Shown piece after piece: positions 26,500 to 56,426 of a stretch of 57,882 nucleotides of DNA (within the stretch, counting starts at the first letter, position 1; every line of letters begins with the position of its first letter). The position numbers and the translations under genes were made by a program. The stretch comes from a virus. The notes beneath the pieces are model-generated. The model was not told where the DNA came from and ran no database searches. It saw only the letters and a program-made list of their open reading frames with translations. Where the stretch lies: positions 1-57,882 of IMG/VR virus record IMGVR_UViG_3300035670_000247, one strand, 5' to 3'.

Positions 26500-26516
26500 C
26501 AGGGACATTTTTTTCA
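26500..26516 (-). promoter_or_regulatory. 17-bp late element, copy 4
   Basis: TGAAAAAAATGTCCCTG, whose TGA is the stop of the giant polyvalent protein. The terminase small subunit start follows within about 57 bases. Confidence 0.7.
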
Positions 26517-29500
26517 TTCTATTTCGCGCAGTCGCTCGTGCTTGGGCGCTCTGGCCATCTTGCTGAGCGTGGCCTTGAGCGTCGAACGGTTAATCAACGG
26601 GATCTCCCCGTTCGGATGTCGGGCATGGACTCTGATGTTGTATTCGTCGATCTGGTTGTACAGGTCAATCAGCCCGGCATGGTCGCGGCTGGATGCAGGC
26701 TGGAGCCAATACGCCCGGAACCGCGCCAGAATGTCGGAGCGCTTGTTGCTGTAGTTCGCCGCCACCTGGCGTTCATTCCACTGCCGTTCCCGGATGGCAG
26801 ACAGCCGCGCCGGGTTGAAGCCCAAACCGCGAATGATCGCGTCCAGTGCCGTCGGCCGCAGAGGCTCGTCGCCGTAGAACACCGGGGAATTGCTCCAGGT
26901 GGTTATGCCCTTGGTGTATTCCCGGTACGCCTTGACCGGCGCGGCGGCGAAGCGCGGCAGCAGTTGTTCCGCGCCCTTCAGCGTGTCGCCGCGCAGTATT
27001 GATTTGCCGCCGTAGTAGATGTCCTGCATCACGCCGCCGGGAGCTCCGAGAAATTCCATCCGGGTGCTCGGGATCACGTCCCGCAGCGAGATTCGCAGCG
27101 AGCCGGATATGTTGACGTTGGCGAACGAGAACACGCCCTGGCGGGCGAAGCGGCTTGCCGGTTCACCGAATTGCGCTTCCAGCCATTTGTAGAAATCCTC
27201 TTCCGGGTCGTCGCCGCCGGACACCATTTTGAGCAGCGCCAGAACCGCGCCCGACACCACCGACGCGCCAAGTCCGCCGAGAACCGCCGGACTGAACGCC
27301 ATGTACAGTGCCGCGCCGTACTGTTTTTCCTTCAATCCGAGTTCGGCCATGGTCTGAAGGTAGTTGTGCGTGAATGTCTTGAACATCCAGAACGAGCGCG
27401 GCAATGGGTGCCGCGCCCAGCTCGGCAGGTTGGCCTTGCCGTACACGCCGTGCGCACGGTCGCTTACCTTCTTCGCTTTTTCCATCGCCGCTTCGTGCGC
27501 GGCGTCTGTCCATTCGCCCTGATGTTTGGATTTGATTGCTTCATACGTCGCGGCAATGGTGGCCACACGGTTGATCTGCTCGGTCACGCTGAACGCCAGC
27601 ATCGACAAATCGACCGCCTTGGCCGTCGCCCGTCCCAGTTTGCCTTTCAACGCCGTGACCGCCTCCCGGTTGTACTGGGCTTCGTGCCAGCCCCGCGCCA
27701 CGATGTCGTGGATGGTCGAGGCATACGCCCCGGTGTATTCCTTCCCCTGCTTCATCGCCGCCATGTACTTGCCGTAGGCCGCGCCGGTTCTGCCGAGCAG
27801 CTTGAACGCTTGAAGCTCCGAGATTCCGGCATATCCCCGCATCGCGCCCGGAACGCTCGTCAGCAGCGCGGTCAGGTTGACCAGAGGCGAAGAGAAACTC
27901 GCCAGGTACTTCACCGAAGCCACGCCGCGCAGTATTCCGAACAGACGCTCCATCGCGTCCTCGTTCCGCAGCATGTATTGCAGCAGGTCCGTGCCCTGCT
28001 TCCAGGCAATCGGCTGTTGAGCCGAATCGATCCGGCGTTCGTTAACGAACTTGTGGTAGTCTTCCTTGGTCGGGTTCTCCGCCTGCTTCGCCCATTCGGA
28101 GTAGGGCACGTCCGTTCCCGTGATCGCCCGAGTCATGTTCCGCGCCAGCGTGTTCTTCGCCAGACCGCCCGCCGTTGACTTCCCGAGCAAGGTCACCGCC
28201 GTCTGCGGGTCCTCTTCGTACCCGGTCCACACGTTCTCGCCGGTTTCGTCGCCGCGCATGATCATGCTCGACCGGCTTCCGTGCTCCCGTACCACGTTGG
28301 CGATCTGCCGCGCCAGCGCCTGCGCGAACATCAGTTCGGTGTCCGGGTTCACCGCCTGGTCCTCCAGCAGCGCCCGCACCAGGTCGCTCTCGATGTTGGG
28401 CCGCCCCACGAAGTGCCAGGCTTTTCCGTGGCCGTCGTCCGCGTCGTAGAACCTGCCGCCTTGCTCCATGAAAATCGCCTGCATCCCCTTGCCGTAGGTT
28501 CCGGCGACAACAAAGTCGTACTGCCCGTCCGCGCTGGTCTCCCGGAAAGTGTCCTTGATCTTGAAGTCGGCCAGCGTGTATTGGTTGGGGTTGCGGTGAA
28601 TGCGCTCCAGGGTGTTGTTGATCAAGTCCTGCATGGCGATGTTCGGACCCGCGATGCTGTACACGTCCTCGCTCGGGGTCTGGCTCTTGGACGTGTTCAC
28701 CGTGTACCCCTGTTCCTCCAGCGTCGCCTGCCGTGCCGCCATGAACGGAGGGGTATCGAACATTTCAAGTATCGGGTTCGCGCCGTCCTTCGTGGCGCTC
28801 AGAACGAACCGGCCCGGCTTGCGGATACGCGGCATGTAGTAACCGCGCCTCTGTCCCATCGACGCGATGGCGGCCAGCAGGTCAACCTGGGCCACGCCGT
28901 CCTTCGTCTTCATCGCCACCGGCGGGAACTTCTCGCCGGTCTGGTCTTCGTACTCACTTGCTATCTGCCGCATCGACATCGACAGTTTGCCGTACACCGC
29001 ATCATTGATTGAGCGAATTGCATAAAGCGCGGCCACGGCCTGCTCGGAGAACCCTGCCGCTTGTGCGTCCCGGCCTTCGCGCAGATAAACCGCGTTCCAT
29101 GCTTCGGTGTCACTGGAGAAATCGCCGAGCTTTTCCTTGCTTACGCTGTATGCCGTGAACGTGCCGTCCCGGTTCTCCAGCACGCTGCCGCCGGTCTGGT
29201 TGCGGTCGTGCTTGACCAGGTATTCTTGCAGCCGTTTGTACTGCAGTGGACGCTGCTTGCGGAAATCATCGATCACCGCCAAGCGGCTCGTTGCGTCCGG
29301 CGCGTTGAAGATGTCGTTCTCGAACTGAAACCGCGTGTCGTGGTAGGCAATCGCATGGTCGTGCGCCCGTTTCAGCGCCGGGACCTTGTCCGCCGAGTGC
29401 GAAAGCGTCCGCAGCACCACGTCCACGCCGGACAAGTCCTGCCTGCCTGGCCGGGTCAGTCCGGCTTTCCACTTGCTTCCCGTCGCCCGCAGCAGATTCG

Positions 29501-32500
29501 CCGCCTGCTGTACATGCCTGGAGAACGCCTCGCCAGCCTCTTCAGCCGTGCGCGGCACCCTGTGCTGATACATCGGCAGCCCACGCAACGCCTCCCCGCG
29601 AATCGCCGGAGTGATCGGCACCGACCAGACTTCCGGGCCGGCGCTCTCATCCACCTGGCGGATTTCCCAGTTGGGCGACGCGGTCGGGTTGCCGGCCTGG
29701 CGGTTTACGATCTGCACGTCTCTTTCGGAATCGTACACGGCATCGCCGAAGTATTCCCCTGTGGTGGTATTGACTATGGCCCAGCCTGCCGGGAGGTCGC
29801 CTTCGAGTCGCGCCTTCTCGACTCCGGCGGTTTTGTCCAGCTTCTTGACAAACTTCCCGACCTCGTTCGGCAGAATCCGGTCGTAGAACCCCTTCATGCC
29901 CTCGCCGCCGACCTTCAGTCCGTCCTCGGAAAACGTCTGTCTGGATACGTGATTTTCACCGGGAGGCGGGATGTAACTGGCATCCATGTTCTCGCCGGCC
30001 GTGATTTTGGCGGCTAGTTCCTTGCCGACCGTTTCATCAAGCTTGCTGGCAGGAATTACCTTCTGCATGAATGCAGCTTGATTATGCCCGATGGCGGTGA
30101 CATAATACCCACCATCCTTCTGCATGAACGCATGAATCTCTTTCACCTGCTTGCTCAAGTCATACCGCTCCGCCTGCACCTCGCCCGGGGTCCACGCCAC
30201 CGCGTCGTATCCCTGTTCCGCCGCCATCCGCAGCACCCGCTTGAACGCCAGCATCGCCCAGGACTTCTTGAATGGGGCGCTGGGAACAATGCCATCTGGG
30301 CCGATGTGAAGTTTTCCGTTAAGTTCATCCAGCGCGGATTGAATTGCCTGTTCACGAATCGGCGAACGAAGACCATAGATTTCACCGTCTTTCATAACGG
30401 CGTAATTTTTCCCATCCGGCGAACTTTGCTCAATTACCTTATATTCGATTGGCAGTGCATTGAAAGGCTTGCGTGGAACATACCCCTGCTTCCGCCCCGC
30501 CTGGTGCCAGTCGCTCTGAATCTCCTCGACGAACAACACCCGGTTCCCGTCCGCATCCATCCGGTCGTTCAGGCGCATGTGGACGAGGACGTTCGGATCT
30601 TCGGACCAGTGGGAGGACTTGAACTGAGTCTGGTCGGCTGGAGGAAATTCTCTCTGATACTCGGCGACATGCTGCTGCCGATCCTGTATCCGATAGCCTT
30701 TGTCCCGCATCCAATCCGTAAACCGTGGGGCTGTGTCGGCGGACACCGGTAGCTTGATCAGCACCTCGCGGTAGTTCTCTTTTTCCCCTTCCATCTGCCA
30801 TTTAGCGTGTTTAACTGGCGAAGCAGTCGTAGGCGCTGAGATTGTTCCGCCAATTTCATCCGCTATGGCTCGTGCTTCATGTTCGCTTGTTGCATGTCGG
30901 ATGAGGTTGCCATCGGAATCCCAAACGCCCCACCTCTCACCCTTCACCACTTCCTCGATCCTCGGCCCGCCGTTCGCGATGAAGTCAAGCACCTGGTCCT
31001 TCGTCACTTTCCCGTCCACACCGTCCAGCCAGTCGAAGAACCCGAGGTCGTCGATCTCTTCCTGCTTCACGCTGGGGGCCTTGAGCAGCCGCGCCTTCAA
31101 CTGATCCGCCGGGATCGAGTTGAACTCCATACCCTCCACCGCATCCGCCAGCGGACTGAAAAAGCCCAGCATATCACGTCCGGTCCTGCTGTACCGGATG
31201 TCGTCGGACGCGGCATTAAACCGCTCACTTAGCGGGATGACGTTGCCCTGGTCATCACGGGTCACCGGATCGGCGGACTTGACCTGGGAGGGGTCATTTG
31301 CCATATACTCGGTAAAGTTTTCATTAAAATCATTGCCCTGTTTCTGCTGTACATCATTGCGAAGAAAGACCTCGTAAACTACAGGAGTCCCATTGGACAT
31401 TTTTGCCCATAGTTCAGCAAACCGCTTTGCTACTTTGCGGCTATCGGAAAAGTGAGCAAATCCAGTATGAGTAGAAGCGGTTTCAAAGGTTGTAATGCCG
31501 CTTTTGTCTGTTCCGTGATATGCCTTTATTACATACCCCGCCTTCTTCGCCGCTTCATCCACCATCTTCTGCGCAGTCTCCATGTCGCCGCTTTCCACCG
31601 CTTGCAGATATTCCGCATCCGCCTGCCCGCTATCAGAAGCAGCGCTCATGTCTAGCAGTGTGTTCAGCGCGTCGTTGAAGATGCGGGGATTGCGGATCGT
31701 GTCGCGCAGGGTCTTCGTCCGTTTGCCGTCCGCGAAGGTGTCGAACCCCGCATACAGTTCGGCGGCAATTTCTTCCGCGAGCAGGTGGTCGGAGTTTTGG
31801 AAATAGCCGGGGTCGGAAGATTCGATGAAGCGCCGGTAGGCTTGCGCCACCGGGTGGGTGATGTCGATCTGGTCGAGCATCGACACCGCCGGGGCTTCGG
31901 AGTCGAGCACGAACATGTGGAACAGTTCGTGGGCGAATGTCTCTTCCCAGGTCGCGTCGTTGGCGTTTCTTGGCGCGGCAGTGTTGACCAGGATGAACCC
32001 GTCCCAATGCGAACCGTGCCAGTTGTTGGACGGCGCGTGAACCGGGATCACCGCCGCTCCGACCGCTTCTCCTCGGCGGCGAATCTCGCTCCATTTCGGC
32101 GATGCCGCCGCCGCTTCGTCAACCGTCAGGCCAGCTATTTCCTGTCGAGTTCTTTCTTGCAGTCCGCTTGAAAGTCCTGAAAGCCTTTGCAGGGTTTCCA
32201 GGTGCCGTCGGCCTGCTTTTCCATTCTCGGAGTGAACCGCATTCCGCCCACCTTCACCGAAACCATCGGTGCGCGGTCGCGCCCGATCACTTTCTTGCTG
32301 CCGTTCGAGTTTTTCGTAGTTGACATTGGGGTCGCCTCCTGATTCGATTATCTTACTGATGAGTTCTTGCGCTGTCAAGTCCGGGTCCGCATATCCGTAT
32401 TCCAGAGCTTCCTGCCGAAGCTGGTCCATGGTGGTAATCTTGTGCTGCCGATCAATCTCCGCCTCCCGGATCGCGTCCAGCTTCTCGCCGTTGCGTTCAA

Positions 32501-35500
32501 GAAGGGCGATGCGGTCGAGGACGGATTGATCCCATATCACATATTTTGCGCCCGTGGCCCCCTGGCTTACGCCGCCGTGGGTGTTGCCGGGGATGCCTGC
32601 GCGAGCGAGAAATTCTGAGGCTTCTTTATCGGATGGCCAAAACACATCACCGCCAGCCTTCTCATTGAAATGTTCAGCTATAACTGCACTTAAATTGTTA
32701 TAGAAAGTGCCTCCCTTGCCAAGAGCGTAGCCAAGTCCTTCGTTATCGTTTAGGTCGTAAAGGGACGTGGAGCCAATGGTTAAATCTTTAATGTCTATGT
32801 TTTCACGCTCTGCTTGTCTCCTAATTTTGGCAGCATTTTCAGGAGACACATTCCGGTCCCAATCCAGCAGCTTTGGCATCACGTCGTCGGGGATGTCGAG
32901 TTTGTAGAGGGATTGCCCGCTTATTGCATGGGCTTTATCGTATTCAACTTTGTCGATCAAATTGCCGTTTTTGTAGAACGCCCCCTTTCCGCTGCGATTC
33001 GTCATTGAGGAATACGTTGCCCCATCGTGTTCAAATTGATGGTAGCCTTTGCGAGCGTTTGCATTGATGTACGTTTTCGCTACATCATCCCTCTCCGCAA
33101 AGTATATTCCATGCCCGTATGACTGATTCCCTTCCCCCGTCCCGATCATGTCCAGGCGTGGCCTGCCATGCGGGAAACCCGGCTCCGGCTGCCAGATATG
33201 CGGAGTGCCGTGGTTAACGTGCTGCCGACGGATGTCGTCGCTCAGTTCATTGAACCGTTCGGACAGCGGGATCACGTTGCCCGCGTCGTCGTAGGTCACG
33301 GGATCGGTGGAAATTATCGAAGATGCTGGAAGCGGCCTTTCATGGCGTTGTGAATCCGTTGTTTGTCTTTCCGCAATGAGTCGATCTCTTGCGGCTTCAA
33401 CAGACCGGTTTCGGAGTAGCCACCAGGCTTCGTTTTCGGAGAGAGCGGAGGGAGAGTTTCCGATTTTGAATTCTTTGATGAGTTGGTAGAGTTTAACATG
33501 GTCGAACTTCTCCAGAAGTTTTGACATTGTGTTTTTTGTCAATTCCAATGTAGTGCTGCCGTGCGATGCTGTCAAACAACAAGCATCAACCACTATGCCG
33601 CCGGATTGCTCGATGTATTGACGAAGAGCAGCAAGAGTACCGCCTGCTGTAACATGATCGTCAACAATAATGTATTCCCGATTTTGTTGAACTGTTCCGG
33701 CAAAAGTCGGGCGGTTGGCCAACCGATAGGCCGCGCCTTTGCCTCTGTGAAAAACTTTGGAAGCCTGCACGATTTCGCGATCAACCTCCAAATTGCCGAT
33801 CTGAGCGATGGCTTCTGCGAACGTCTGAGGAATTGCGTTTTTACCTGACGCTTCTTCGGCATGAACAGCGCACACGATTGCGTTCGGGTGGCGAGATGCA
33901 AGTTTTTTTATCTTGTCCGGTTTAATAGTGTTTTCAATGAGCCTGGCTGCCGCGTCTGCGTTTCCGGCTTTCGCTTTGTCAAAGTCTTCTTGATAATTGC
34001 TTGTCACGTAACGACGGGTCGTGTGGATTTGTATTTTTTCAACTCGTCCACGCGGTGCGAGGTCCGCAAATCTGGGATTGTCGGTGGCGTTCATCATCCG
34101 GTTCACGATCTTGGCCTGCAACCGTTCCGCCGTTGCGGAGTCCGCAAACGCCTTGCCCAGGTCGTTCCGCCCGGACAGATAGGCCATGGCGATTTCCTCC
34201 GCCACCGCACGGTTTGCCGCGTCGATCACCCGCTGCTGATTTGCGGTGTCCGCAATGTCCGCGTCGGTCAACCCCAGCCGGTTCATCGCGTCCCGATAAT
34301 ACCGCCGCTGGATGTCCCGGCTCTCGAACAAGCCACGGGCCACCTCGCGAAACGCCGGGCTGTTCTGATCAACCGCATCGATCAGCCGCGTCACGTCCCG
34401 GTCGCCGCGTTCGGCCAACACATGCCCCACCTCATGCACCAGGTAGTTCTCCGCCGCCGGAGTGTCGGCAATGAACACCGAGTCACCTTGGGCGAACCCG
34501 CCCTGGGCGGCAACCGGCAGAGTGACGGGCACGGCAGTCGCGCCGTTCCGCCGGGCGATGGAATCTAGTCCTCGGAAAGCCGCCGAAGATGCCCATCGCC
34601 CATCGAGTCGAACACGTGCAAGGTTGCCTTCGGTATCTCCTTGTTTTGCCTGCGCAAGAGCCTTCTGCCATGTCTGTCGGGCTTGCCGACGCTGTTGAGC
34701 GGAAGGTGCATCCGTGTTCCGTCCGGCGTATTCACGTGCAACTGTTTCAGAGATGTCTTGTTCATCGAGTCCTCCTTGTCTTGGTGTCAAATCCGCGTAC
34801 ATCATGACTCCGCGTTCCGTCTCGCGGGTCTTGATCGTGTCGAACAGCTTGTCGAATGCCTTGTTGATCGCCTGGCGTTCTTCGCCCTCCGGGTACGGTT
34901 TCAGCAAACCTTCCGGGTAGATGGGGACGAAGACCGTTCCATGGGCCTTGTAGACAAGGAAGTCGTTCTTCGCGCTGGCCGTCGTCAGCTTGTCTTCAAC
35001 ATACGCCGCGAACGCCCGTGCCGCCATTTCCGGGTTGCTCGACCAGTATTTATCCGTCCGCGCCTGATCCGCCGCCATGGCCTGCCGCCGGAACTCGGTC
35101 GGAACGTTCTTTTCCTTGACGACTTCCTTGCGACCTTCCTCCATGGTCTCGATGCGGTCCTGATAGCGGCTCATCACGCCACGCAGTCGGATGAACGTGC
35201 TGTCGCTGCTTTCGCTGAAGCCGGTCCTGCCGCGAACGGCCTTGTAGATCGCGCTCATCTCTTCGAGCACTTTGTTCGTGTGCCGTCCGGCGAAGTACTT
35301 GTTTTTTCGCCGCTTCGTCGCCGCGTCGTCCTCCATCCACTCCGTGTCCAGCGATTCACCGTTCAGCAGCGTCTGCGCCAGCTCGTCGAATCGCGCCAAC
35401 TGCTCCGGGGTCGCCGGGGCCGTGAACCGCTTGCCGTAGCGTTGTTCGGTCGCCAGGTTGTTGCGGATTCCCTGCAATTCCTCATCCAGTCGGTCTCTCG

Positions 35501-38500
35501 CCTTCCCCAGCCACTTTTCGGCCTTCTCCGTGTCCTCTACATAGGTTTCCGCCTTTGAAAGCATCGTCGCCACGACGTTATCGAACGCATCCCGAACTTC
35601 TGGCCGCACTTGGCTCGCCCCGCCCCGCCTCAGCTCTTCGGTCGCCATGCTCGATTTCTTGGGGTCGTATGTCATATCCCCGCGTTGGTTCGCGGTCTTT
35701 TCGCTGGTGGCGATTCCGTCCTGCCGGGCGAAGTAGTGATCCACCGCGTGCCACCATTCGTGCGCCAGATGCCCGGCCCCGGACATCTTGGTCAGGTTGA
35801 TCACGGCGTAGTCGCGCTCGTAGTGCGCCGCCGCCCCCTGCAAGCCATGCCCCCGCGCCCCGAACGCAATCGCCAGCTCGCCGTCCAGCGACATCGCCCG
35901 AGGCGGCACGTTCAGCAGCTCCGCCAAGTCCAGGAACGAGTCGAAGGCATGGTTCATCACTTCCTGCCGTTCCTCGGTCTTGCTCACCCAGTTCCCGAAC
36001 TCCACTCCACGGAACCCGAACGTCTCGTCGAACGCCTCGACCGTCGCATCGCCGGACCGCCGCACCTTGCCTTGACGGTCGACCGTCGTCGGCTTGAGCA
36101 GCACTTCCTCGCCGAAGCTCAGTCGAGCGTCCAGTATCTCGCCCGCGTGGAGCGCCATGTGTTTCATGGCATCTTCGCGGCTGTCGAACATCTCCGGGAC
36201 CGCCTGCACCATTCGCTTGTTGCTCAGTCTGCGGTAGATCGTGAACTTTCCGTCGCTTGCGCCGTAGACGCTGTGGTTCTGCGCCACCGCCGCCACCGGC
36301 AGAATCTCCTCCGCCTCTTCCCGAGTATCGAACTCCTTGCGCGAAATCTGCAACGGTTCGTTCGACAGGTACGAGTGGCTTTTCTTGCGCAGGTCGAGCA
36401 GCACCCACTTGCCGTTCCTCGGGCTGTCTTCCATTTCCCCAGTCGCCCGGTTCCGGCGCGTTTCGTTCTGGATTTGCTGAACCACGTATCGCGCCCGCCA
36501 GCCCGTGGGCTTGTCTTCGTCGGTCTGGCCTTTGCGCCGGACCTGCCGCCCGCCAGCCGTGTCTTTCCGCGCTCCGCCGATCTTCTCCCCGAAGTCCTCG
36601 ATCACGCCGGGCACCTGCCGCGCCGCCGCGCTGGCATTGGCATTCGCTTTCGATTGATTGTTCGCCGCCACATCGAACAGGTTCTGGTCTTCACCCAGAA
36701 GATTACCCTGGATGCCCTTTGTATTGTCCACGATCCGGGCGCGTTGCATTTCCCGAATCTTCTTTTGCTGCGCTTCCTTTCGCGCCTTCTCCGCCGCCTC
36801 CGCCCGTTCCCGCTTCACATCGTCCTCGGTATACGACTCCAGCTCCAGCGTTTCGCTGTCCGTCTTCGTCTCCGCCTCTGCCGCCTGGCTTTCCGGTGCA
36901 ATGGCCGCCACGATGTCGTCGGCCATCTCGTCGAGCTGCTGTTCGGAGTTCATGTCGCTGCGGTATTCTTCGTTTCCCGGCCAGTTCCTCGCGCCCAGGT
37001 ACCACGACTTCAGGTAGGGTCGCACCTTCTCGCCCAGGTCGTTGATCATCGCCTTCGCATACGCCGCGAACTTGCGGGTTCCCGCCTTCACATACAGCGA
37101 AGTCAACTCGATCCCGGCGGTCAGAATCTCCGGGTCGATCCCCGCCGTCGCTTGCCCGCCCAGCTTCCGCCGTAGCTTCTTCTGTAGTTCCGCCCCCCGA
37201 GCCTGATCTTCTTCCGATAGATTACTGAGAAACCCGGACTTCTCGGCGGGGGTGTCCTGGCTTTCTTCCGTCTGGGTTGTTGACTGCTGATATTGTTCTT
37301 CGAAAAGGCGATACGTGTAACCTTTTTTATCTGTGGCAACGTAGCGAATGTTGCTATGCAAAAATCCACCGTCTGCAAGCTCAATCTTGCCCGTGATCGT
37401 CAATGGCGTATTTGCAGGTATGGTTTGGTCTGACTTGACAGGGTTCCCGCGCTGGTTTTGGGTGTTTCGGGCTTGGACAAAAATGTCTTGTGTTGTTATG
37501 GTTTCTTTTGGAAATGTTTCGTTTGCCAGACCTTGATCGGGGGTCCGATGTTGGCTTAAATATTCGTCCGCCCAGGGTTCTCCTAAATAATCCGATACCA
37601 CTTCAGCTTCAACGCTTTCTCCGGCGGCGATTGCCTGTTGGACGCTTTGCTTGTGCAATATTCCGGCATCGTCTTCCGCCTTTCTAAGGGCATCTTGATT
37701 GTCCCTCCATTGATCTCCTATGTCTTGTCCGTTTTGGGTGGCGCTATACAGCTCATCGCCGCGACGGGTAAGCGTTTGCACGTCAGCATTGGTGCGTAAA
37801 AACGAGTCAAGCGTCATCTCCCACGGCTCTTTGGCCTGCGCCCGCCCGTCCGGCTTTTGTAGTTCCGGGTAGTCGGCGGCTGGGTTGGATGATTGCGATG
37901 GGTTCGGCACAGCAACGATTGATTCTTGATATGCCTTTTTCAACTTGTCGTAATCAATTAGTTGCCTACCATTTTCGTCTGCTTCTGAAAGCGCTCCAAT
38001 TTTGCTTAACGGGTCCTGCCATTTCCATGAAACCGCACCGTTGTATTTTTCTGAAACGCCTTCCAAAAAGTCAGACAGCTTGTCTCTGTTGTATGTGTTT
38101 TCGTCAGGAAGCAACTTTTTAACCCATGCTCCAGACGGCCTTGAGTCTGCTTTTGTTTCAAGATTTTGCTTGTCATTTTCTATTTGATTTTTTGTTTTAC
38201 CCTTGTTTTCAATCGTAGTTACATCTTGCGGGTTTTCTGTTGATGCGACTTTAAGGGACTTACGAAGTTGTCCTTCTTTATCAAGAGACCTTCTAAGCAT
38301 CTCTTCGTGCTTTCTCATCGCTGAAATGCTATTTCCTCTTGCGCCTGTTTCCTGAAGTTGCTTTGTCGTTTTTTTTGCGTTTTCTAACTTGCTAGAGATG
38401 ATTTCTTTTTCAGAAACTTTCCTTGCAACTTTAACAATATACCTGTTTTCGCTGCCGTCTTTGTCAATGGCAATGTATTCGGCAGACCGAAACGTCGTTC

Positions 38501-41500
38501 CGACATTACTTGCAATTCCATCATATTCCTTAAAGTTTTCAATCGTATCCCATGATATGTTGGCTAAGTCAGATATTTTCAGCGCGGCGGCGGCTGGGTG
38601 CGCCTTCTTTTGCAAGTCCGGGTAGTCGGCAAGCACCTCGGCGGGGACGGGCTTGCCTTCGGAGAGTGCTCTTTCGATTATTCTCTTGTGCATGGCTTCG
38701 CCCTTAAAGCCATAGAGGTCTACGGTATCTCCCTTTTTATACGTAGGCCGCTCTATGTTTAAGCGCTTTGCCAGTTCTGCCCCGGCTCCAGAATTGAGGC
38801 GGTCAGCTTCTACTTGGTCAAGGACAACCCTCCATAAATTCGTAGGCGCATATTCGGTGGGAGCATTGGTTTTCTTTTTCGTCATCTCCCACGGCTCTTT
38901 GGCCTGCGCCCGCCCGTCCGGATTCTCTTCCGCCTCCGGTCCTGTTGCGGCATCGGTATCCACCGCCAGCTCTTTCCCGTCGATGATCGCCGTGATCTGC
39001 TCCAGCTCCCACTGCATCCGGCCGTCGATCTCCCGATCAAGCGCCAGGTCAAGCTGCTGCCAGTAGTTCACCCGCTCCTGAAGCGCCGCCCGCTTCGCCT
39101 TCTGCTCGTCGTTCCAGGGCGTGGGGTTTCCGGCCTTGAACTGGTCGCGCTCAGTCTCCGCTCTTTCCAGGCTCTGGTCCACAATGCTCCGGGCATAGCC
39201 TTCGCCGGTCGTGATCTGGGCCGCTGAATACCGCGCCCGGTAGTCGCGCTGTGCGGTCTTCGCAAACTCGTCAACCGTCGGCTTCACGTCCGCATCGGGA
39301 TTCACCGCTTGGAAGAATTGCTGCATATCCCCGATCGTATCGAACTGGAACCCTGGCACAGCTCCGCCGGATGATGCCTTGGAATATCGTCCGCCGTTCG
39401 CTTTGGCCTGGGCAAGCAGTTTATCGAACACATCACGCGGAACCACTCTGTTCAACCGCACTACCAGCGCTTCACGCTTCCGCTCCGGGTTCCAGGCGCG
39501 GTACGCCGTCAGTTCCGGCGCGGCTGGAGTAGTTTCGGGCTGGGGTTCCGGTTCCGTTGCAGGTTTCGGCGGCTGGGTCGTCGTTTTGGGTTCACGCTCG
39601 GCAAGCGCGGCAATGGCCAGTTTTACGCCATATTCCGCGTCGCTTCTTACGCGCTCTATGGGCATGGTAAGATAGGGATTCGCTTGATCTGCCGGCCTTG
39701 TTGCCGGTTTTGCTGCTTCCGGTTCAACCGTTTGATTTGTTTTGATACTCGGCGTTCCATCGCCGGATTGACCTGTCTCATCGAGAACTGGAGTAGTCCG
39801 TCCACTGTTATCGGTACCATCCTGTCGCCTGAATTGTTTTTCTCGTTCTGCATTGCTTATTGCTCCTGTCAGTATATCAATCAGTGTTTCTTCGGGCACT
39901 TCGTTTTGGCTGAACAACATTGGTGTGCGCTCGTCGATGCTCTCGACAGACCGCGTATATGTGCCCAGCAAATTTTTAACGTCCTCGATCGCTTTGGACT
40001 CCAGCAACGCCAGCGTCAGGCGCTGCGCCGCGGTATCGTCTGCGCCGAACAGGCCATACTGCCGGAAATACGCATGTTCATTGGCGGCAGTGCCATTGTT
40101 CACGGACTGGCGGGCATGTACCAATTCCTTAATGGCTCGACCCAGCAGCGGGATTATGTCAAATTTAGCATGAGTTTTGGAAATTCGCAAGAGCCCGGGG
40201 GCGGCGGCTACTGCCCCTTTCGCCACGCGCTTGATCTGCGGGTCTTCATTGTTTTCCAGGATGAACGTCACCAGCTCGCGCTGGGCACCGCTGTGTTTCA
40301 ACAAAGCCGCCAGGGCTGCCCTGTTCATGCGTCGTTGAAATGATTCCACCGGAGTGCCATCCGTCGTGGTCATAGCCGCGCCGGCATCAGTCAACCGCAG
40401 AAACGCTCTCCAGAAGGCAGCGTTCTGCATAGCACCCATGTCGCCGTTGACGGGGACATCCAGCAATTTGGCCAGATTGTTCTCCAGGATTACGTCGGCG
40501 TCGAACCATGCCTGCTCAGTTTCAGACATTCCCTGCACAACAGGCCGATTTGACTCGTCCGCAAATTTTTTATCGTCACCGACATTGTCACCGTCATAAT
40601 CTTCGACAACCCTGACCAGCACAGGCTGCTCGACACTGCGCAACAATGCGCTGGGGATTCGTTTCTGTGCTGCAAATGCCTCCAACCATTCCATATACGC
40701 GAGGAACTGCGCACTTTCTGAATTGCTCAAAACCTTGGAGAGCAACCAGCGGCGGCCATATCCGGCGATGATCTCACCGCGTTTGTTGATGATGATTCCG
40801 CCCTGGTCACTCATTGCGCTATCCCCGAGCGCTTCCGGGAAAAAGGTGCGATACATCTCTTCGATTCGTTCTGCACTGGCCTGTCTGTTGCGGTCGCGCT
40901 GCTGCAATCCATCGCCGCCGGTTAAACTGCCCAGATCAACAACTGCCCAATAGCCTTTGGCTACCGTGTGCTTGCGTATATCAGCCGTCTTTGCCCGCCA
41001 CTGCCTTTCCGGTCGTTTCGACTGCTGCCGATTGATGAACGGGTTGACCTTGACTTCATTTTCACGCCCGGACACTCCTTCAGGTGCTTGTGTCTCCTGC
41101 CTGCCTGGCACGTTCTGCACCGGCATCGATACATCTGCCGCACTACGTTTCCGCTGTGCGGTTGAATCGTCGTCCTGTGGTCGTTGCTCGTCCTGTAGGT
41201 ACTGCTCATCGGCTCTCTCCTGCGCTTGTTGCGCTCTCTTCTGTCCGCGCAACGCCTGGATCACTCGCCGCCGCAGCTGCGATCTGTTGCCCGTCGGGTC
41301 CAGCCCCATTTGCTCCGCTTCCTGGCGAAGCTCTTCCACCGACATGTTGTTGATCCGCCGCTTCACGTCACCTATGGTCACGCCAGCCGTCTTCCGCGCT
41401 GTCTTCAGCAGCTCCATCGTCAATTCGCCAGCCGTCTCGAAATCGTCCTGCTGCAATGCCTCGTCGATCTTCTGCCGCGTCTCCGCCGTATCTTTGCGCC

Positions 41501-43595
41501 ACTGCTGGTCCTGCAATGCCCCGGACTGCTCCAGCAATCCGAACACCTCGTCCGCCAGGGCATCGAACGCCGCTGCCGTCGCCATTCTGGCCTCTGCGCT
41601 TTCACGTCGGGAAACCGCAGTGCTCAACAGCACGTTCTGCCGATGCTCGATTTTTTCTCGTACCATGCGGGCAAACGCCCGGCGCTCAGACCGGTTCCAG
41701 CGGTGCCCCGTGCCCAATAGTTCAGTAAGCTGCTTCCGGCTCGGAGTCTCCAGACGCGCCAGGCGCTCGGCGGCGCCGGGGTTGCTATCCAGAAACGCTA
41801 CTGCATCTGTAGCCGTCGGCGCATTGGATCGTGGTTGATTCTGGCCGCGCATGAAATTGTCTATGTCATCTGCATTGTCCTCGTCCGTCCCCAGCGCATC
41901 CTCGCCGGATTCCGGCGGAATAAGCCGTTCAGCATAATTCGCGAGTTCAACATCTGTCATCAGTCCTTCGTTGTACAAGTCGCGGATTTGATCCAGCTCG
42001 CTTCGTGTCCCCGGCACCTGGTCCACCGGTATTCCCAGGCGTTCGGCAATTTCCAGCTTCTGGTCGTCGCCCAGTTCTTCTGCCGGCCGACCGCGCCGAC
42101 CGATAATAACAAACGCTAAATCCACTGTTTCAGCCGGAAGTTTTTCCCCGGATTCACTTTCCGGCGTCTCTCCCATCATCAACGCCATATCGCGCTTTTC
42201 CATTGCATCGTTCAGCGCCTTCAGCTCATTACGCTGTTCGTCCGTCATAGCCGGGCGACCTGTCACCTTGTCTGCAGCATACCCAAGAACCGCCGCGCCG
42301 CCGGGGATCAGCATAAAGCCGCCCAGTTCCGTGATGATCTGCTCCGGCGTCAGGTCGCGCCGCGCCGCTGCCCACAGCCTGGACAGCACGTTCTTCGGGT
42401 TTTCCGATCCGAAATCCTCATTGCCCGTCAGCGCATTAAGGAAACTCGCCGCCCGCTCCTCCGTCCATTCCTCGAACAGATTACCACGGGCTGCCCGTCT
42501 CAGCAGCTGTTTCCCAAACGTTTCGATTGACCCTGTTCGGTCCACCGTCTTCCATGCGTTGTAAACCGCCTTGCGAAAAAGCGCCGCGCCACTCTTTGCC
42601 GCATTCACTGCGCTCGCGCCGCCAGGCAGCTTGGATACGGCTGCGCCCGCGCCGCGCATCAGATAGCCACCCATCAACTCGCTGGACCGCTCAAACGCTT
42701 GTCCCATAAATGCCCGCAACGCGCTTTCAGCTTCGCTTTCGGCGGCATTGCCCAGCGTCAGCTTCCCGTCATTGTCAGATTCGAGGCGACTCTGCCATTG
42801 CCGTCGAACATAATCCTCATACGTCCGGTGTGGCGTCACCGCCGCCAGCACCGTGCCTTTCAGCGCTAGATTTGTTCCCAGCGTCACGCCTTTCTTGATC
42901 TTGGGGGCGTTGGTCAGAATCTTTGCCAGTCCCGGGGCCAGCTTTTTCGTCGCGGCATCCGCCAGCCGTCTGCCGGCAACCATTTCGCCGATGTACGGCA
43001 TCGAGTCCAGCCCGATGTCAACCATGTTAGCCAGCATCGACTTGCTTCGGCTTGCCTGTTCTTTGTCGGCCTGTAATTGTTTGTGAATAAATTCAAACTG
43101 ATCAGGCGTGGCCGTGCCGGCCGCATACGCATCCATCGCCCGCTTCTTGTATCCTGCTTTTATCCCCTTTTGGCCGGCGTTGGCCGCCAGCGCGGCATAG
43201 CCGATTGTTTTGCGCAGGGGGTTATTTGCGGCCGTCAGTGTGCTGGCCGCGCCCAGTACGGTTTCGGTTTTATCCCGGCGGAGCAGCGCTTCGCCCAGGC
43301 CGATATTGCCCTGGCGACGAGGATCATGCGTGTCTGCAAACGCATCCTCGCGTCTGTCGGCCCATAATACCGCAGCGTCGAGCAGATCAGCAAGCACAGG
43401 CTCTGGCCTTGTGTCAGCCTTGAACACGGCATGGTCTTTGCCCAGTGCCGCGCCACGTTTGATCGCCGAATCCAGAATGTATTGATCGTGCCGCTGCCTG
43501 AGAATTTTGGCCTGGAGCGTTTTGACGTCGAGAGTTCCGTCTATGGATGGGACACCGGTGGCATCGTTACTGCGGGAGTCGCGTAGAGAGGGCAT
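26514..43595 (-). CDS. Giant polyvalent virion protein (5,693 aa)
   Basis: One uninterrupted 17-kb gene, ATG at 43595 with GAGGATG upstream. Domains seen, approximate residues: N-terminal Ala-rich helical region (1-450); SAP (750-785, MSVEELRQEAEQMGLDPTGN); DdrB/ParB-like (855-1250, GEIIAGYGRR); an EPWEMT linker used twice; LPD5-like zincin with HEWWH at 2612-2616; zincin HEVGH at 3054-3058; phosphoribosyltransferase-like (3190-3400, IVDDHVTAGGT); ADP-ribosyltransferase-like (3461-3692, HGTPHIW ... YGHGIYF); zincin HELFH at 3889-3893; second ADP-ribosyltransferase-like (4025-4127, AYHGTDKS); EEIQSDW domain (about 4360); and a C-terminal LPD38-like region (5190-5690). Polyvalent proteins of this kind are injected with phage DNA to counter host defences. 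Here it probably travels in the virion. Confidence 0.9.
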   Translation of the reverse strand: MPSLRDSRSNDATGVPSIDGTLDVKTLQAKILRQRHDQYILDSAIKRGAALGKDHAVFKADTRPEPVLADLLDAAVLWADRREDAFADTHDPRRQGNIGLGEALLRRDKTETVLGAASTLTAANNPLRKTIGYAALAANAGQKGIKAGYKKRAMDAYAAGTATPDQFEFIHKQLQADKEQASRSKSMLANMVDIGLDSMPYIGEMVAGRRLADAATKKLAPGLAKILTNAPKIKKGVTLGTNLALKGTVLAAVTPHRTYEDYVRRQWQSRLESDNDGKLTLGNAAESEAESALRAFMGQAFERSSELMGGYLMRGAGAAVSKLPGGASAVNAAKSGAALFRKAVYNAWKTVDRTGSIETFGKQLLRRAARGNLFEEWTEERAASFLNALTGNEDFGSENPKNVLSRLWAAARRDLTPEQIITELGGFMLIPGGAAVLGYAADKVTGRPAMTDEQRNELKALNDAMEKRDMALMMGETPESESGEKLPAETVDLAFVIIGRRGRPAEELGDDQKLEIAERLGIPVDQVPGTRSELDQIRDLYNEGLMTDVELANYAERLIPPESGEDALGTDEDNADDIDNFMRGQNQPRSNAPTATDAVAFLDSNPGAAERLARLETPSRKQLTELLGTGHRWNRSERRAFARMVREKIEHRQNVLLSTAVSRRESAEARMATAAAFDALADEVFGLLEQSGALQDQQWRKDTAETRQKIDEALQQDDFETAGELTMELLKTARKTAGVTIGDVKRRINNMSVEELRQEAEQMGLDPTGNRSQLRRRVIQALRGQKRAQQAQERADEQYLQDEQRPQDDDSTAQRKRSAADVSMPVQNVPGRQETQAPEGVSGRENEVKVNPFINRQQSKRPERQWRAKTADIRKHTVAKGYWAVVDLGSLTGGDGLQQRDRNRQASAERIEEMYRTFFPEALGDSAMSDQGGIIINKRGEIIAGYGRRWLLSKVLSNSESAQFLAYMEWLEAFAAQKRIPSALLRSVEQPVLVRVVEDYDGDNVGDDKKFADESNRPVVQGMSETEQAWFDADVILENNLAKLLDVPVNGDMGAMQNAAFWRAFLRLTDAGAAMTTTDGTPVESFQRRMNRAALAALLKHSGAQRELVTFILENNEDPQIKRVAKGAVAAAPGLLRISKTHAKFDIIPLLGRAIKELVHARQSVNNGTAANEHAYFRQYGLFGADDTAAQRLTLALLESKAIEDVKNLLGTYTRSVESIDERTPMLFSQNEVPEETLIDILTGAISNAEREKQFRRQDGTDNSGRTTPVLDETGQSGDGTPSIKTNQTVEPEAAKPATRPADQANPYLTMPIERVRSDAEYGVKLAIAALAEREPKTTTQPPKPATEPEPQPETTPAAPELTAYRAWNPERKREALVVRLNRVVPRDVFDKLLAQAKANGGRYSKASSGGAVPGFQFDTIGDMQQFFQAVNPDADVKPTVDEFAKTAQRDYRARYSAAQITTGEGYARSIVDQSLERAETERDQFKAGNPTPWNDEQKAKRAALQERVNYWQQLDLALDREIDGRMQWELEQITAIIDGKELAVDTDAATGPEAEENPDGRAQAKEPWEMTKKKTNAPTEYAPTNLWRVVLDQVEADRLNSGAGAELAKRLNIERPTYKKGDTVDLYGFKGEAMHKRIIERALSEGKPVPAEVLADYPDLQKKAHPAAAALKISDLANISWDTIENFKEYDGIASNVGTTFRSAEYIAIDKDGSENRYIVKVARKVSEKEIISSKLENAKKTTKQLQETGARGNSISAMRKHEEMLRRSLDKEGQLRKSLKVASTENPQDVTTIENKGKTKNQIENDKQNLETKADSRPSGAWVKKLLPDENTYNRDKLSDFLEGVSEKYNGAVSWKWQDPLSKIGALSEADENGRQLIDYDKLKKAYQESIVAVPNPSQSSNPAADYPELQKPDGRAQAKEPWEMTLDSFLRTNADVQTLTRRGDELYSATQNGQDIGDQWRDNQDALRKAEDDAGILHKQSVQQAIAAGESVEAEVVSDYLGEPWADEYLSQHRTPDQGLANETFPKETITTQDIFVQARNTQNQRGNPVKSDQTIPANTPLTITGKIELADGGFLHSNIRYVATDKKGYTYRLFEEQYQQSTTQTEESQDTPAEKSGFLSNLSEEDQARGAELQKKLRRKLGGQATAGIDPEILTAGIELTSLYVKAGTRKFAAYAKAMINDLGEKVRPYLKSWYLGARNWPGNEEYRSDMNSEQQLDEMADDIVAAIAPESQAAEAETKTDSETLELESYTEDDVKRERAEAAEKARKEAQQKKIREMQRARIVDNTKGIQGNLLGEDQNLFDVAANNQSKANANASAAARQVPGVIEDFGEKIGGARKDTAGGRQVRRKGQTDEDKPTGWRARYVVQQIQNETRRNRATGEMEDSPRNGKWVLLDLRKKSHSYLSNEPLQISRKEFDTREEAEEILPVAAVAQNHSVYGASDGKFTIYRRLSNKRMVQAVPEMFDSREDAMKHMALHAGEILDARLSFGEEVLLKPTTVDRQGKVRRSGDATVEAFDETFGFRGVEFGNWVSKTEERQEVMNHAFDSFLDLAELLNVPPRAMSLDGELAIAFGARGHGLQGAAAHYERDYAVINLTKMSGAGHLAHEWWHAVDHYFARQDGIATSEKTANQRGDMTYDPKKSSMATEELRRGGASQVRPEVRDAFDNVVATMLSKAETYVEDTEKAEKWLGKARDRLDEELQGIRNNLATEQRYGKRFTAPATPEQLARFDELAQTLLNGESLDTEWMEDDAATKRRKNKYFAGRHTNKVLEEMSAIYKAVRGRTGFSESSDSTFIRLRGVMSRYQDRIETMEEGRKEVVKEKNVPTEFRRQAMAADQARTDKYWSSNPEMAARAFAAYVEDKLTTASAKNDFLVYKAHGTVFVPIYPEGLLKPYPEGEERQAINKAFDKLFDTIKTRETERGVMMYADLTPRQGGLDEQDISETVAREYAGRNTDAPSAQQRRQARQTWQKALAQAKQGDTEGNLARVRLDGRWASSAAFRGLDSIARRNGATAVPVTLPVAAQGGFAQGDSVFIADTPAAENYLVHEVGHVLAERGDRDVTRLIDAVDQNSPAFREVARGLFESRDIQRRYYRDAMNRLGLTDADIADTANQQRVIDAANRAVAEEIAMAYLSGRNDLGKAFADSATAERLQAKIVNRMMNATDNPRFADLAPRGRVEKIQIHTTRRYVTSNYQEDFDKAKAGNADAAARLIENTIKPDKIKKLASRHPNAIVCAVHAEEASGKNAIPQTFAEAIAQIGNLEVDREIVQASKVFHRGKGAAYRLANRPTFAGTVQQNREYIIVDDHVTAGGTLAALRQYIEQSGGIVVDACCLTASHGSTTLELTKNTMSKLLEKFDHVKLYQLIKEFKIGNSPSALSENEAWWLLRNRSVEAARDRLIAERQTTDSQRHERPLPASSIISTDPVTYDDAGNVIPLSERFNELSDDIRRQHVNHGTPHIWQPEPGFPHGRPRLDMIGTGEGNQSYGHGIYFAERDDVAKTYINANARKGYHQFEHDGATYSSMTNRSGKGAFYKNGNLIDKVEYDKAHAISGQSLYKLDIPDDVMPKLLDWDRNVSPENAAKIRRQAERENIDIKDLTIGSTSLYDLNDNEGLGYALGKGGTFYNNLSAVIAEHFNEKAGGDVFWPSDKEASEFLARAGIPGNTHGGVSQGATGAKYVIWDQSVLDRIALLERNGEKLDAIREAEIDRQHKITTMDQLRQEALEYGYADPDLTAQELISKIIESGGDPNVNYEKLERQQESDRARPRTDGFGEGGRNAVHSENGKAGRRHLETLQRLSGLSSGLQERTRQEIAGLTVDEAAAASPKWSEIRRRGEAVGAAVIPVHAPSNNWHGSHWDGFILVNTAAPRNANDATWEETFAHELFHMFVLDSEAPAVSMLDQIDITHPVAQAYRRFIESSDPGYFQNSDHLLAEEIAAELYAGFDTFADGKRTKTLRDTIRNPRIFNDALNTLLDMSAASDSGQADAEYLQAVESGDMETAQKMVDEAAKKAGYVIKAYHGTDKSGITTFETASTHTGFAHFSDSRKVAKRFAELWAKMSNGTPVVYEVFLRNDVQQKQGNDFNENFTEYMANDPSQVKSADPVTRDDQGNVIPLSERFNAASDDIRYSRTGRDMLGFFSPLADAVEGMEFNSIPADQLKARLLKAPSVKQEEIDDLGFFDWLDGVDGKVTKDQVLDFIANGGPRIEEVVKGERWGVWDSDGNLIRHATSEHEARAIADEIGGTISAPTTASPVKHAKWQMEGEKENYREVLIKLPVSADTAPRFTDWMRDKGYRIQDRQQHVAEYQREFPPADQTQFKSSHWSEDPNVLVHMRLNDRMDADGNRVLFVEEIQSDWHQAGRKQGYVPRKPFNALPIEYKVIEQSSPDGKNYAVMKDGEIYGLRSPIREQAIQSALDELNGKLHIGPDGIVPSAPFKKSWAMLAFKRVLRMAAEQGYDAVAWTPGEVQAERYDLSKQVKEIHAFMQKDGGYYVTAIGHNQAAFMQKVIPASKLDETVGKELAAKITAGENMDASYIPPPGENHVSRQTFSEDGLKVGGEGMKGFYDRILPNEVGKFVKKLDKTAGVEKARLEGDLPAGWAIVNTTTGEYFGDAVYDSERDVQIVNRQAGNPTASPNWEIRQVDESAGPEVWSVPITPAIRGEALRGLPMYQHRVPRTAEEAGEAFSRHVQQAANLLRATGSKWKAGLTRPGRQDLSGVDVVLRTLSHSADKVPALKRAHDHAIAYHDTRFQFENDIFNAPDATSRLAVIDDFRKQRPLQYKRLQEYLVKHDRNQTGGSVLENRDGTFTAYSVSKEKLGDFSSDTEAWNAVYLREGRDAQAAGFSEQAVAALYAIRSINDAVYGKLSMSMRQIASEYEDQTGEKFPPVAMKTKDGVAQVDLLAAIASMGQRRGYYMPRIRKPGRFVLSATKDGANPILEMFDTPPFMAARQATLEEQGYTVNTSKSQTPSEDVYSIAGPNIAMQDLINNTLERIHRNPNQYTLADFKIKDTFRETSADGQYDFVVAGTYGKGMQAIFMEQGGRFYDADDGHGKAWHFVGRPNIESDLVRALLEDQAVNPDTELMFAQALARQIANVVREHGSRSSMIMRGDETGENVWTGYEEDPQTAVTLLGKSTAGGLAKNTLARNMTRAITGTDVPYSEWAKQAENPTKEDYHKFVNERRIDSAQQPIAWKQGTDLLQYMLRNEDAMERLFGILRGVASVKYLASFSSPLVNLTALLTSVPGAMRGYAGISELQAFKLLGRTGAAYGKYMAAMKQGKEYTGAYASTIHDIVARGWHEAQYNREAVTALKGKLGRATAKAVDLSMLAFSVTEQINRVATIAATYEAIKSKHQGEWTDAAHEAAMEKAKKVSDRAHGVYGKANLPSWARHPLPRSFWMFKTFTHNYLQTMAELGLKEKQYGAALYMAFSPAVLGGLGASVVSGAVLALLKMVSGGDDPEEDFYKWLEAQFGEPASRFARQGVFSFANVNISGSLRISLRDVIPSTRMEFLGAPGGVMQDIYYGGKSILRGDTLKGAEQLLPRFAAAPVKAYREYTKGITTWSNSPVFYGDEPLRPTALDAIIRGLGFNPARLSAIRERQWNERQVAANYSNKRSDILARFRAYWLQPASSRDHAGLIDLYNQIDEYNIRVHARHPNGEIPLINRSTLKATLSKMARAPKHERLREIE
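37812..37853. repeat. 42-bp perfect direct repeat, copy A
   Basis: Identical to 38880-38921. Encodes the end of the linker (S)DGRAQAKEPWEMT in the giant gene. The two copies are 1,068 bp apart, which is 356 codons, so recombination between them would delete or add an in-frame module. Confidence 0.9.
38880..38921. repeat. 42-bp perfect direct repeat, copy B
   Basis: Second copy of the repeat at 37812. The 1-kb segment in between is conspicuously A+T-rich compared with the rest of the giant gene and encodes a Lys/Glu-rich domain without recognised motif (SEKEIISSKLENAKKTTKQL region). Confidence 0.9.
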
Positions 43596-43622: not shown

Positions 43623-44756
43623 TTAGAGTTTTTGCCGCACGGCTATGCGGATCTCTTCGGGGGTCGCTCCTGTCGCCAGCAGCGTTGCCACTGCCTCTAT
43701 GTTGGCTGCGGTTTCTGATTGGCCTATGCGTTGCAGCAGGCTTGTCGCCTGGGATTGATAGCGTTGGTATCGTTCGGTATTTAGATCGTCTTTGGCCCGC
43801 TTGACGCCTTTCTTGTCGCCGATGGCTTCCAGAGCACGCACTTTTTGCTCAAGCTGCGCCAATTTGTCGCCACCCGCTTCGGCAAGCACGAACTGTTCCC
43901 ACTCACCGGGAAATTGCTCCATCAACTCGTTTTCCGTCAACGTTGTCGCGCCCTCGCCAAGCGATGGCCGCAAGCGATCTCGGAAACGGTCCATTAGATC
44001 GAGTTTTTCCTGCGGCGAGAACTGCCCATAAATTTCGTTGTACTCTTTCTGTGCCGCTTTGGCTTGTTCCGCGTCGGCAACCGCATCACCTATTGCGTTG
44101 CTTTGAATTTCCCTTTGATACAGGTCGTGCTCGAACAGCTTTCCGCTCTGGTACTGCTGCTGCCGCGCCCCGGCGATGCTCACCGTTCCCAGTTCGTTAT
44201 TGATCTTCGCTTCCTTCACTCGTTCCGGGTGCATCTCCGCGCTCTGCTCTTGCGCTTGCCGCGCCCCGGCGATGCTCACCGTTCCCAGTTCGTTATTGAT
44301 CTTCGCTTCCTTCACTCGTTCCGGGTGCATCTCCGCGCTCTGCTCTTGCGCTTGCCGCGCCCCGGCGATGCTCACTCTTCCAGCCTCGTTTGTGATCTTC
44401 GCTTCCTTCACTCGTTCCGGGTGCATCTCCGCGCTCTGCTCCCGGTTTTGCCTTGACCCTGCGATGTTTTCTTTCTCGATTGCGTCTGTTCGCCGCTCGC
44501 TGCGCGTTGTGATGTCGTTCTGGAACTGTTGCTGTTTCACCGCGGACGCGTCCAGCTTGTTCTGGCGTCGCATCTGATGCGCCATGAGAGAGTAGTTGCG
44601 CAGATTGGCAGCGCCTTCCTCCCGGCGGCGCATGTCCATCAGGCCGCTGTGCGTAGTCTGTACGGTATTACCGCCGAGCGTCGCCGCCCGCGCCGAGGCC
44701 AGCCCATACTGGCGTTGGTTATCGAGTCCTCGCGTCCGTTTGCTGAACGTCGCCAT
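43623..44756 (-). CDS. Virion protein with 32-residue tandem repeats (377 aa)
   Basis: ATG at 44756 with GGGAGAACG upstream. Gln/Arg/Glu-rich and helical throughout (QQQYQSGKLFEHDLYQRE), typical of internal or ejected podovirus proteins. Residues 104-198 hold three 32-residue units of the form EQSAEMHPERVKEAKINNEL + GTVSIAGARQAQ. It lies directly upstream of the giant gene, suggesting an internal virion or ejection protein that works with it. Confidence 0.6.
   Translation of the reverse strand: MATFSKRTRGLDNQRQYGLASARAATLGGNTVQTTHSGLMDMRRREEGAANLRNYSLMAHQMRRQNKLDASAVKQQQFQNDITTRSERRTDAIEKENIAGSRQNREQSAEMHPERVKEAKITNEAGRVSIAGARQAQEQSAEMHPERVKEAKINNELGTVSIAGARQAQEQSAEMHPERVKEAKINNELGTVSIAGARQQQYQSGKLFEHDLYQREIQSNAIGDAVADAEQAKAAQKEYNEIYGQFSPQEKLDLMDRFRDRLRPSLGEGATTLTENELMEQFPGEWEQFVLAEAGGDKLAQLEQKVRALEAIGDKKGVKRAKDDLNTERYQRYQSQATSLLQRIGQSETAANIEAVATLLATGATPEEIRIAVRQKL
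44162..44449. repeat. Three 96-bp tandem repeats (coding)
   Basis: Units at 44162-44257, 44258-44353 and 44354-44449; the first two are almost identical, the third slightly diverged. Period 96 bp equals 32 codons, keeping frame in the 377-residue protein. Confidence 0.85.
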
Positions 44757-55451: not shown

Positions 55452-55644
55452 TTGCGTCCTCCTGGCGTTTGGTGATGCAGCACCTGCGATCCCAGTCAGC
55501 CGCATCCTGCGGAGTAATCCGCAATGCGCGTCCATACCGGTGCGCTCTCAGAGTGCCGGCAGCAATGTGCCGGTACACGGTCATGCGGCTGATCTGCCGC
55601 TCTTCCGCCACATCGGCAACGGATAAAAATGTTCTCATTCGCAT
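55438..55644 (-). CDS. Xis-like helix-turn-helix protein (68 aa)
   Basis: ATG at 55644 with GAGGAG upstream, overlapping the recombinase stop. LSVADVAEERQISRMTVYRH followed by a beta wing (RYGRALRITPQDAADWDRR) is the HTH_17/excisionase layout. Adjacent to the second tyrosine recombinase, so it may be its directionality factor. Confidence 0.7.
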   Translation of the reverse strand: MRMRTFLSVADVAEERQISRMTVYRHIAAGTLRAHRYGRALRITPQDAADWDRRCCITKRQEDASELG

Positions 55645-56426
55645 AACAGGCTCCTCACGACATCTTCAATGGCATCCAATGCGCCATTCTGAATCTCTTC
55701 ATCTGTCTGCACATAGCTGGTGGTCGATGTTATTTTCGCGTGCCCGAGAAGCTTCTGCATCTCAAGCAGAATATTGACCGGGGTGCCTGATGCCTTGAGA
55801 CTTTTCAGGTGATCGTGTGCTATGCGGGCATACGTCTTGCGCAGGCCGTGAGTGGCGAGCCCGCTGTCATCCAGCCCGGCGCGGCGATACGCAGACCTAT
55901 ACGCCTTGTATGCGCCGACACGACTCAGCCTCTTGCCTGTTGTCGTGCAAAAAAACGGCCATGTTTTGAGTATTTGCCCCTGCGCCCGGATCTGTATCCA
56001 CCAGGCATCCAATGCCTCCCAGGCCATCGGCATTAGCCGGAACGTGCGGGAATCAATGCTGACGGTCTTTTTGCCCCGGATTTGCCGGGCGGCCGAACGG
56101 CAAATCCGATCCAGTTCTGTGCCGGGGATAACATCCGCCAGCAGCATATCAAGATTCTCCTCGACGCGCCTGATAATGTGCTCGATATTGCCAGGGCGGG
56201 GGGCAGATTTTTTGCCGTTCTTGAGGTTGTGCCGCTCTATCGTGATAACGTCTCGGACGCGGTCGGCCGCAACCACGTCACCTACGTTCAGCGACAGCAC
56301 CTCGCTGATGCGCAGCCCCGTTGTGGCCTGCATGATCATCAGCGCACGGTTGCGGGCGCGGGCAGAGCCGCTGAACGCCGCCAGCACGTCTCTCAATTCG
56401 TCGTTGGTCATTGCACGGGTTCTCAT
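55635..56426 (-). CDS. Second tyrosine recombinase, catalytic domain only (263 aa)
   Basis: The ATG at 56426 overlaps the previous stop (ATGA); the longer frame would overlap the zinc gene fully. The protein begins almost directly with the catalytic domain: R in TTGLRISEVLSL, H-x-x-R in HGLRKTYARIA, LGHA, and Tyr in TSTTSYVQTDE. Residues before it (RTRAMTNDELRDVLAAF) are only a short helix, so the usual core-binding domain is missing. It could be a XerC/D-like resolvase for phage multimers or a second integrase. It lies in the early replication operon, unlike the lysogeny integrase. Confidence 0.75.
   Translation of the reverse strand: MRTRAMTNDELRDVLAAFSGSARARNRALMIMQATTGLRISEVLSLNVGDVVAADRVRDVITIERHNLKNGKKSAPRPGNIEHIIRRVEENLDMLLADVIPGTELDRICRSAARQIRGKKTVSIDSRTFRLMPMAWEALDAWWIQIRAQGQILKTWPFFCTTTGKRLSRVGAYKAYRSAYRRAGLDDSGLATHGLRKTYARIAHDHLKSLKASGTPVNILLEMQKLLGHAKITSTTSYVQTDEEIQNGALDAIEDVVRSLLCE

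Follow-up and report, generated by a model that had tools for sequence, protein, structure and literature searches.

The exact 42-bp direct repeat in the giant gene of this phage encodes the front end of a small unit that recurs in many virus proteins, and the similar bordered slots with unrelated contents found in those proteins suggest that parts are swapped by ordinary recombination. In our preferred reading, which we put at a probability of roughly 0.6, the conserved ends of the unit serve both as a protein scaffold and as homology for recombination, so that ordinary recombination would add, remove, or replace modules, and the repeat in the window (the whole 57,882-bp stretch analysed, an IMG/VR virus record) would be its trace. 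The initial annotation had described the repeat and read it as a built-in cassette-exchange site for effector domains; the observation itself is confirmed and the cassette reading is partly supported.

Nested repeats around an AT-rich core in a giant phage gene

The window encodes terminase, portal, head, and internal virion proteins, and its giant gene (26514–43595, minus strand; 5,693 aa) appears from its domain matches to encode a phage polyvalent protein, a class of phages and conjugative elements defined by Iyer et al. (2017, PMC5512222). The protein joins several disparate domains in one phage-encoded polypeptide and resembles those described there in carrying ddrB-ParB, SAP, and LPD1 domains, all matched above the Pfam cut-off, and ART-like domains. 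Matches below the cut-off were obtained for ART-PolyVal and Pribosyltran (PRTase), and the PHROG matches include a DarB-like antirestriction family.

Recomputation bore out an exact 42-bp identity between positions 37812–37853 and 38880–38921, which stops exactly at these limits (98% identity when the copies are stretched to 45 bp), and a copy-to-copy distance of 1,068 bp, or 356 codons, in the reading frame of the giant gene. It is the longest exact repeat of the window outside the tandem repeats, which form a 12-bp array at the contig ends and further stretches at 44.1 and 47.6 kb. Both copies encode the same peptide, PDGRAQAKEPWEMT, in agreement with the initial view of a linker used at both borders, and their codon identity points to a recent common origin. 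Chance is countered by the probability of about 1.5e-5 that all 14 codons match, given the same 14 residues and the gene's own codon usage. An assembly artefact might be considered for an IMG/VR record judged without its reads, but common reads are longer than this repeat, which lies in frame and belongs to a type present in 15 genes; artefact and chance together are hardly credible.

All elements of the module lie on the minus strand. In coding order it opens with copy 1 of the 42-bp repeat (38880–38921), which is matched by the N-motif HMM as the start of unit 1, followed by a 53-aa insert between the N and C motif matches (38697–38855, GC 0.50), the C motif of unit 1 (HKRIIERALSEGKPVPAEVLADYPDLQK; HMM match of 55 bits to AMHKRIIERALSEGKPVPAEVLADYPDL at 38613–38696), and an AT-rich, Lys-rich core (37887–38590). 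The peptide ADYPELQK comes next and leads into unit 2 (37587–37853, HMM matches), composed of the second 42-bp copy as N motif (37812–37853), a 42-aa insert, and a degenerate C motif (ILHKQSVQQAIAAGESVEAEVVSDY). The borders are nested, with the 42-bp repeat outside and two shorter in-frame direct repeats around the core: a 24-nt repeat whose copies are 88% identical (ADYPDLQK, 38607–38630, and ADYPELQK, 37854–37877; spacing 753) and the 11-nt repeat ACCCAGCCGCC at the two edges of the core (38589–38599 and 37875–37885; spacing 714, or 238 codons). The single unrecognized domain initially placed between the 42-bp copies resolves into two parts, since the first ~110 aa of the module are one recurrent unit and the AT-rich core comes after it.

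The segment was also correctly described as richer in A/T and Lys than its surroundings. GC content is 0.41 (0.408) at 37887–38590, 0.51 at 38631–38879, and 0.58 for the whole gene, and Lys makes up 11.5% of the module vs 5.7% of the whole protein. Only 0.05% of gene windows equal in length to the 254-aa stretch between the two units have a GC content that low, and the codon usage of the 233-aa core within this stretch falls in the lowest 0.2% of the gene. The sharp AT shift lies between the two DYPxLQK copies and not at the 42-bp copies themselves. The core, of ~235 aa, would most likely have been inserted after unit 1, which ends in DYPDL, and before unit 2, which starts with KEPWEMT, and the module may be a recent acquisition; the 42-bp repeat could then be the trace of one event that brought, or accompanied, the AT-rich module.

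No Pfam or PHROG match was obtained for the module enclosing the core, a PDB sequence search with the core returned no match, and a scan of viral contigs found no relative of it, in agreement with the initial view of an unrecognized domain. AlphaFold, run on the single sequence, gave a poor model of the core (pLDDT 48), which was not used. The "effector" part of the initial annotation was not borne out, as no effector activity was recognized in the module by Pfam, PHROG, the PDB search, or the core model. Going by the polyvalent family alone, our guess would be an early-acting domain, and the parts of such proteins would presumably act in the host cell.

The KEPWEMT-DYPDL unit and its inserts in other virus proteins

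The unit consists of KEPWEMT, a variable insert, and then H..V..ALSEGKPVPxEVLxDYPDL. The EPWEMT-linked domains that were expected elsewhere proved widespread: with two HMMs, we found at least 171 motif-bearing ORFs, at least 143 of them non-redundant and nearly all viral, including at least 15 with two or more N motifs. A search with a five-unit alignment returned 48 loci from viruses and 3 from archaeal or bacterial assemblies, and a degenerate DNA pattern added at least 120 further stretches, partly from contigs already in the set. The unit type is also carried by plasmids, in 17 records, and by one archaeal virus on record, Methanosarcina virus MetMV.

Among the members scanned, the unit did not match a curated family in Pfam (including the LPDs) or NCBIfam. 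For 23 minimal units, no match was significant (best E 0.027 in Pfam and 0.032 in NCBIfam, each family in one or two members), and Pfam matches on 65 longer units were to single-member families, including one GNAT domain and one weak ParB_N; three of these 65 matched a PHROG ParB C-terminal family. One between-unit module matched ART-PolyVal, and a Pfam scan of the sequence surrounding the units in 10 multi-unit genes gave no named domain. The 57-aa minimal unit is predicted to form a compact helical domain (pLDDT 82, pTM 0.64) without a Foldseek match in the PDB, and the model is least confident at the site where inserts enter. The 42-bp repeat would be coding DNA for the conserved front end of a helical frame domain that occurs twice in the giant protein.

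Across the 115 N-to-C units listed (two of which, L130 and L098, are mis-anchored at their end points and add noise only), the gap between the N and C motif matches ranges from 4 to 161 aa, with a median of 52. Most inserts are mutually unrelated, only 9 of the 90 with at least 25 aa having a relative among the others, and in 83 of 94 units the insert has a lower GC content than its flanks (mean difference -0.064). Within single multi-unit genes, all 14 insert pairs are unrelated, as are the two inserts in the window. The L156 and L187 proteins are 68% identical over 1,356 aa with conserved motifs, but their inserts share only 17%. Such frames would appear to accept, between two conserved ends, inserts that vary widely in length, and often have further modules after them.

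Border DNA within and between genes

At positions with the same residue, codons within one gene are identical far beyond the expectation from codon usage, in 90 of 112 cases for the N motif (46.8 expected) and 94 of 122 for the C motif (45.2 expected). The signal is weak in L107 and L135, and the N motifs of L059, L172, and two of the three L200 pairs show little or no match beyond codon bias. In a census of 140 genes for exact direct repeats of at least 20 bp with a spacing of at least 60 bp, 22 of the 37 repeats had both copies at motifs, vs 1.5 expected from circularly shifted motif positions. All 22 are in frame, as are the remaining 15, and the 42-bp repeat of the window is the second-longest of those sited at motifs. 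These 22 involve 15 genes; 27 genes have two or more motifs of one kind, and about 12 of the 27 lack an exact repeat of this length at their motifs.

Between genes, the synonymous identity is only 0.46 for the N motif and 0.40 for the C motif, and every gene thus has border DNA of its own. Such privacy speaks for recombination by homology rather than by a site-specific system and disfavours a universal DNA site. Among the matches listed, only two other virus contigs contain an exact 22-base core of the 42-bp repeat, and in both it codes for this motif within large, unrelated proteins. A recombinase or programmed switch acting on the 42-bp sequence, as implied by the built-in exchange site first proposed, could draw on the two integrase genes of this phage and would suit repeats that are exact and in frame, but no recombination site sequence is common to the different genes and nothing points to a site-specific enzyme. 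In addition, no orphan cassette with a unit border lies beside the giant gene or elsewhere in the record, all three unit matches falling inside the giant gene. We consider such a dedicated site very improbable.

The edges also bear on a plain recent segmental duplication of the unit whose inside later diverged or was overwritten. Tandem adjacent units do occur in L037, L039, L165, and L200, and the first 100 aa of the module are 35% identical to unit 2 (E 9e-6), but in all 14 pairs the insides are unrelated, while synonymous sites at the edges mostly agree. Plain duplication cannot account for such a contrast between edges and insides, and we regard it as improbable.

The main rival is gene conversion without exchange, in which old duplicated frames are kept alike by conversion or by selection at the DNA level while the inserts diverge in place. 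Border identity with divergent inserts fits this equally well, and close Pseudomonas plasmids retain the same modules: for a P. aeruginosa plasmid gene with C motifs, no module difference was found in the 6 records compared of 7 matches, five being collinear with 0–11 mismatches in 6,081 bp and one having a reading-frame break. However, the inserts have done more than diverge, given their range of lengths, the small number with relatives, and their composition shifts, and a replacement beside a frame is seen in the archaeal virus group described below. Concerted evolution alone is thus unlikely, and recombination that exchanges modules would be the more probable cause of the border identity.

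Relatives, known systems, and a proposed exchange by ordinary recombination

A crossover close to a frame is visible in three related sequences. G010, which is MetMV (identical over 16,156 bp), and the metagenome contig G011 are 98% alike through the beginning of a 245-bp island, and from this island onward G011 is 99.96% like G012 across 10.8 kb. The crossover lies inside a 29-bp exact run, 85–113 bp beyond the DYPEL that closes unit 1. The pattern in these alignments is the one expected from homology-based exchange next to a frame. G011 may be chimeric, though final assembly k-mers tend to be longer than 29 bp. The breakpoint is near a motif and not in one. A scan for further relatives of the MetMV-like group returned only the two known contigs.

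The comparison with related phages that was to show the module present, absent, or replaced found no such relative in phage, plasmid, and viral contig searches. The closest relative found of this phage, G008, has only three short segments in common with it, and these are ordered differently; the motif was absent from the G008 loci scanned. No DNA relative of positions 36300–40400 and no protein relative of the module were found among phages, plasmids gave one match to the linker only, and the upstream region had no relative in the scan of viral contigs. With no relative found that carries or lacks the module, we infer deletion or exchange in the window. The cassette idea draws support from the in-frame, AT-rich, Lys-rich module and its recently shared linker, from the wide occurrence of EPWEMT-linked domains, and from other viruses, in which DNA identity within genes, unrelated inserts, and one visible crossover fall at the ends of the linker; the programmed exchange site is not supported, the border DNA being gene-specific.

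Among known systems, polymorphic toxins (PMC3482391) are similar in that a constant body carries variable domains replaced by recombination with cassettes, but as described there the variable domains form the C-terminal tip and come with standalone cassettes and immunity genes, whereas the slots in the window are internal. For polyvalent proteins, recombined cassettes were raised as a possibility for one kinase-bearing group (PMC5512222), but the KEPWEMT-DYPDL frame and DNA-level border identity were not found in that account, whose main text contains no occurrence of "linker", "swap", or "shuffling". A study of fragment shuffling in phage proteins (PMC10684548) likewise reports domain mosaicism within proteins, but the frame unit was not found in it and its main text does not mention polyvalent proteins or linkers; further comparison literature is available (PMC7164591). 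A full-text literature search for KEPWEMT, or for DYPDL with phage, returned no paper in the collection searched, and the papers listed for polyvalent proteins with modules, recombination, linkers, or repeats showed nothing on the unit in title or abstract.

In the reading that we prefer, the conserved frame ends put short stretches of homology on offer, and general homologous or short-homology recombination, within a gene or between co-infecting phages, would alter the contents between or beside the frames and leave near-identical in-frame border DNA behind. More tentatively, the KEPWEMT-DYPDL unit may be a general slot in virus polyvalent proteins, common to bacterial and archaeal viruses, in which one small fold is both the scaffold for foreign AT-rich inserts and the homology for trading them, without a dedicated recombinase. 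Domain gain and loss in giant phage proteins are known from their architectures, while the mechanics have not been visible. The recurring frame, with its recognizable ends, offers a handle for listing inserts, a source of uncharacterized and possibly anti-defence domains, and a way to ask whether short in-gene homology drives insert exchange. If the proposal is true, viruses of bacteria and archaea would share one grammar by which early-acting domains are reshuffled.

Contig ends and integrase genes

The same 12-bp tandem repeat makes up both ends of the window (1-127 and 57747-57882), and comparison of repeats within the window yielded a 127-bp exact match between the two ends. Given these shared ends, the contig either is a circle, carries terminal repeats, or closes at a simple repeat. 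The phage encodes two integrases, at 2421-3476 (plus strand) and 55635-56615 (minus strand), assigned by PHROG families common to both genes.

Further repeats in and near the giant gene

Within the giant gene, the repeat search and translation identified 83-nt repeats (31195-31277 and 33229-33311, 75%) by which the polyvalent protein encodes a DPVTxDDxGNVIPLSERFNxxSDDIR-like stretch twice. An ART-PolyVal match below the Pfam cut-off falls in this part of the protein. The repeat search of the window also revealed three tandem 96-bp repeats (44144-44466) within ORF 43623-44756, which adjoins the giant gene, and a 66-bp exact repeat at 47655/47718.

Frame units in other elements

In the unit-bearing ORF L062, a 36-bp exact direct repeat (ORF nt 631-666 and 1165-1200) borders one complete frame unit on both sides. 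The large gene of the Pseudomonas plasmid pF065 (L218, 6921-13000) is annotated as two ORFs, whereas the other five fetched copies contain a single ORF. Compared with L208 of Methanosarcina virus MetMV (G010) and L207 (G012), locus L209 on metagenome contig G011 is an apparent hybrid of two Methanosarcina viruses, with the crossover adjoining a frame unit.
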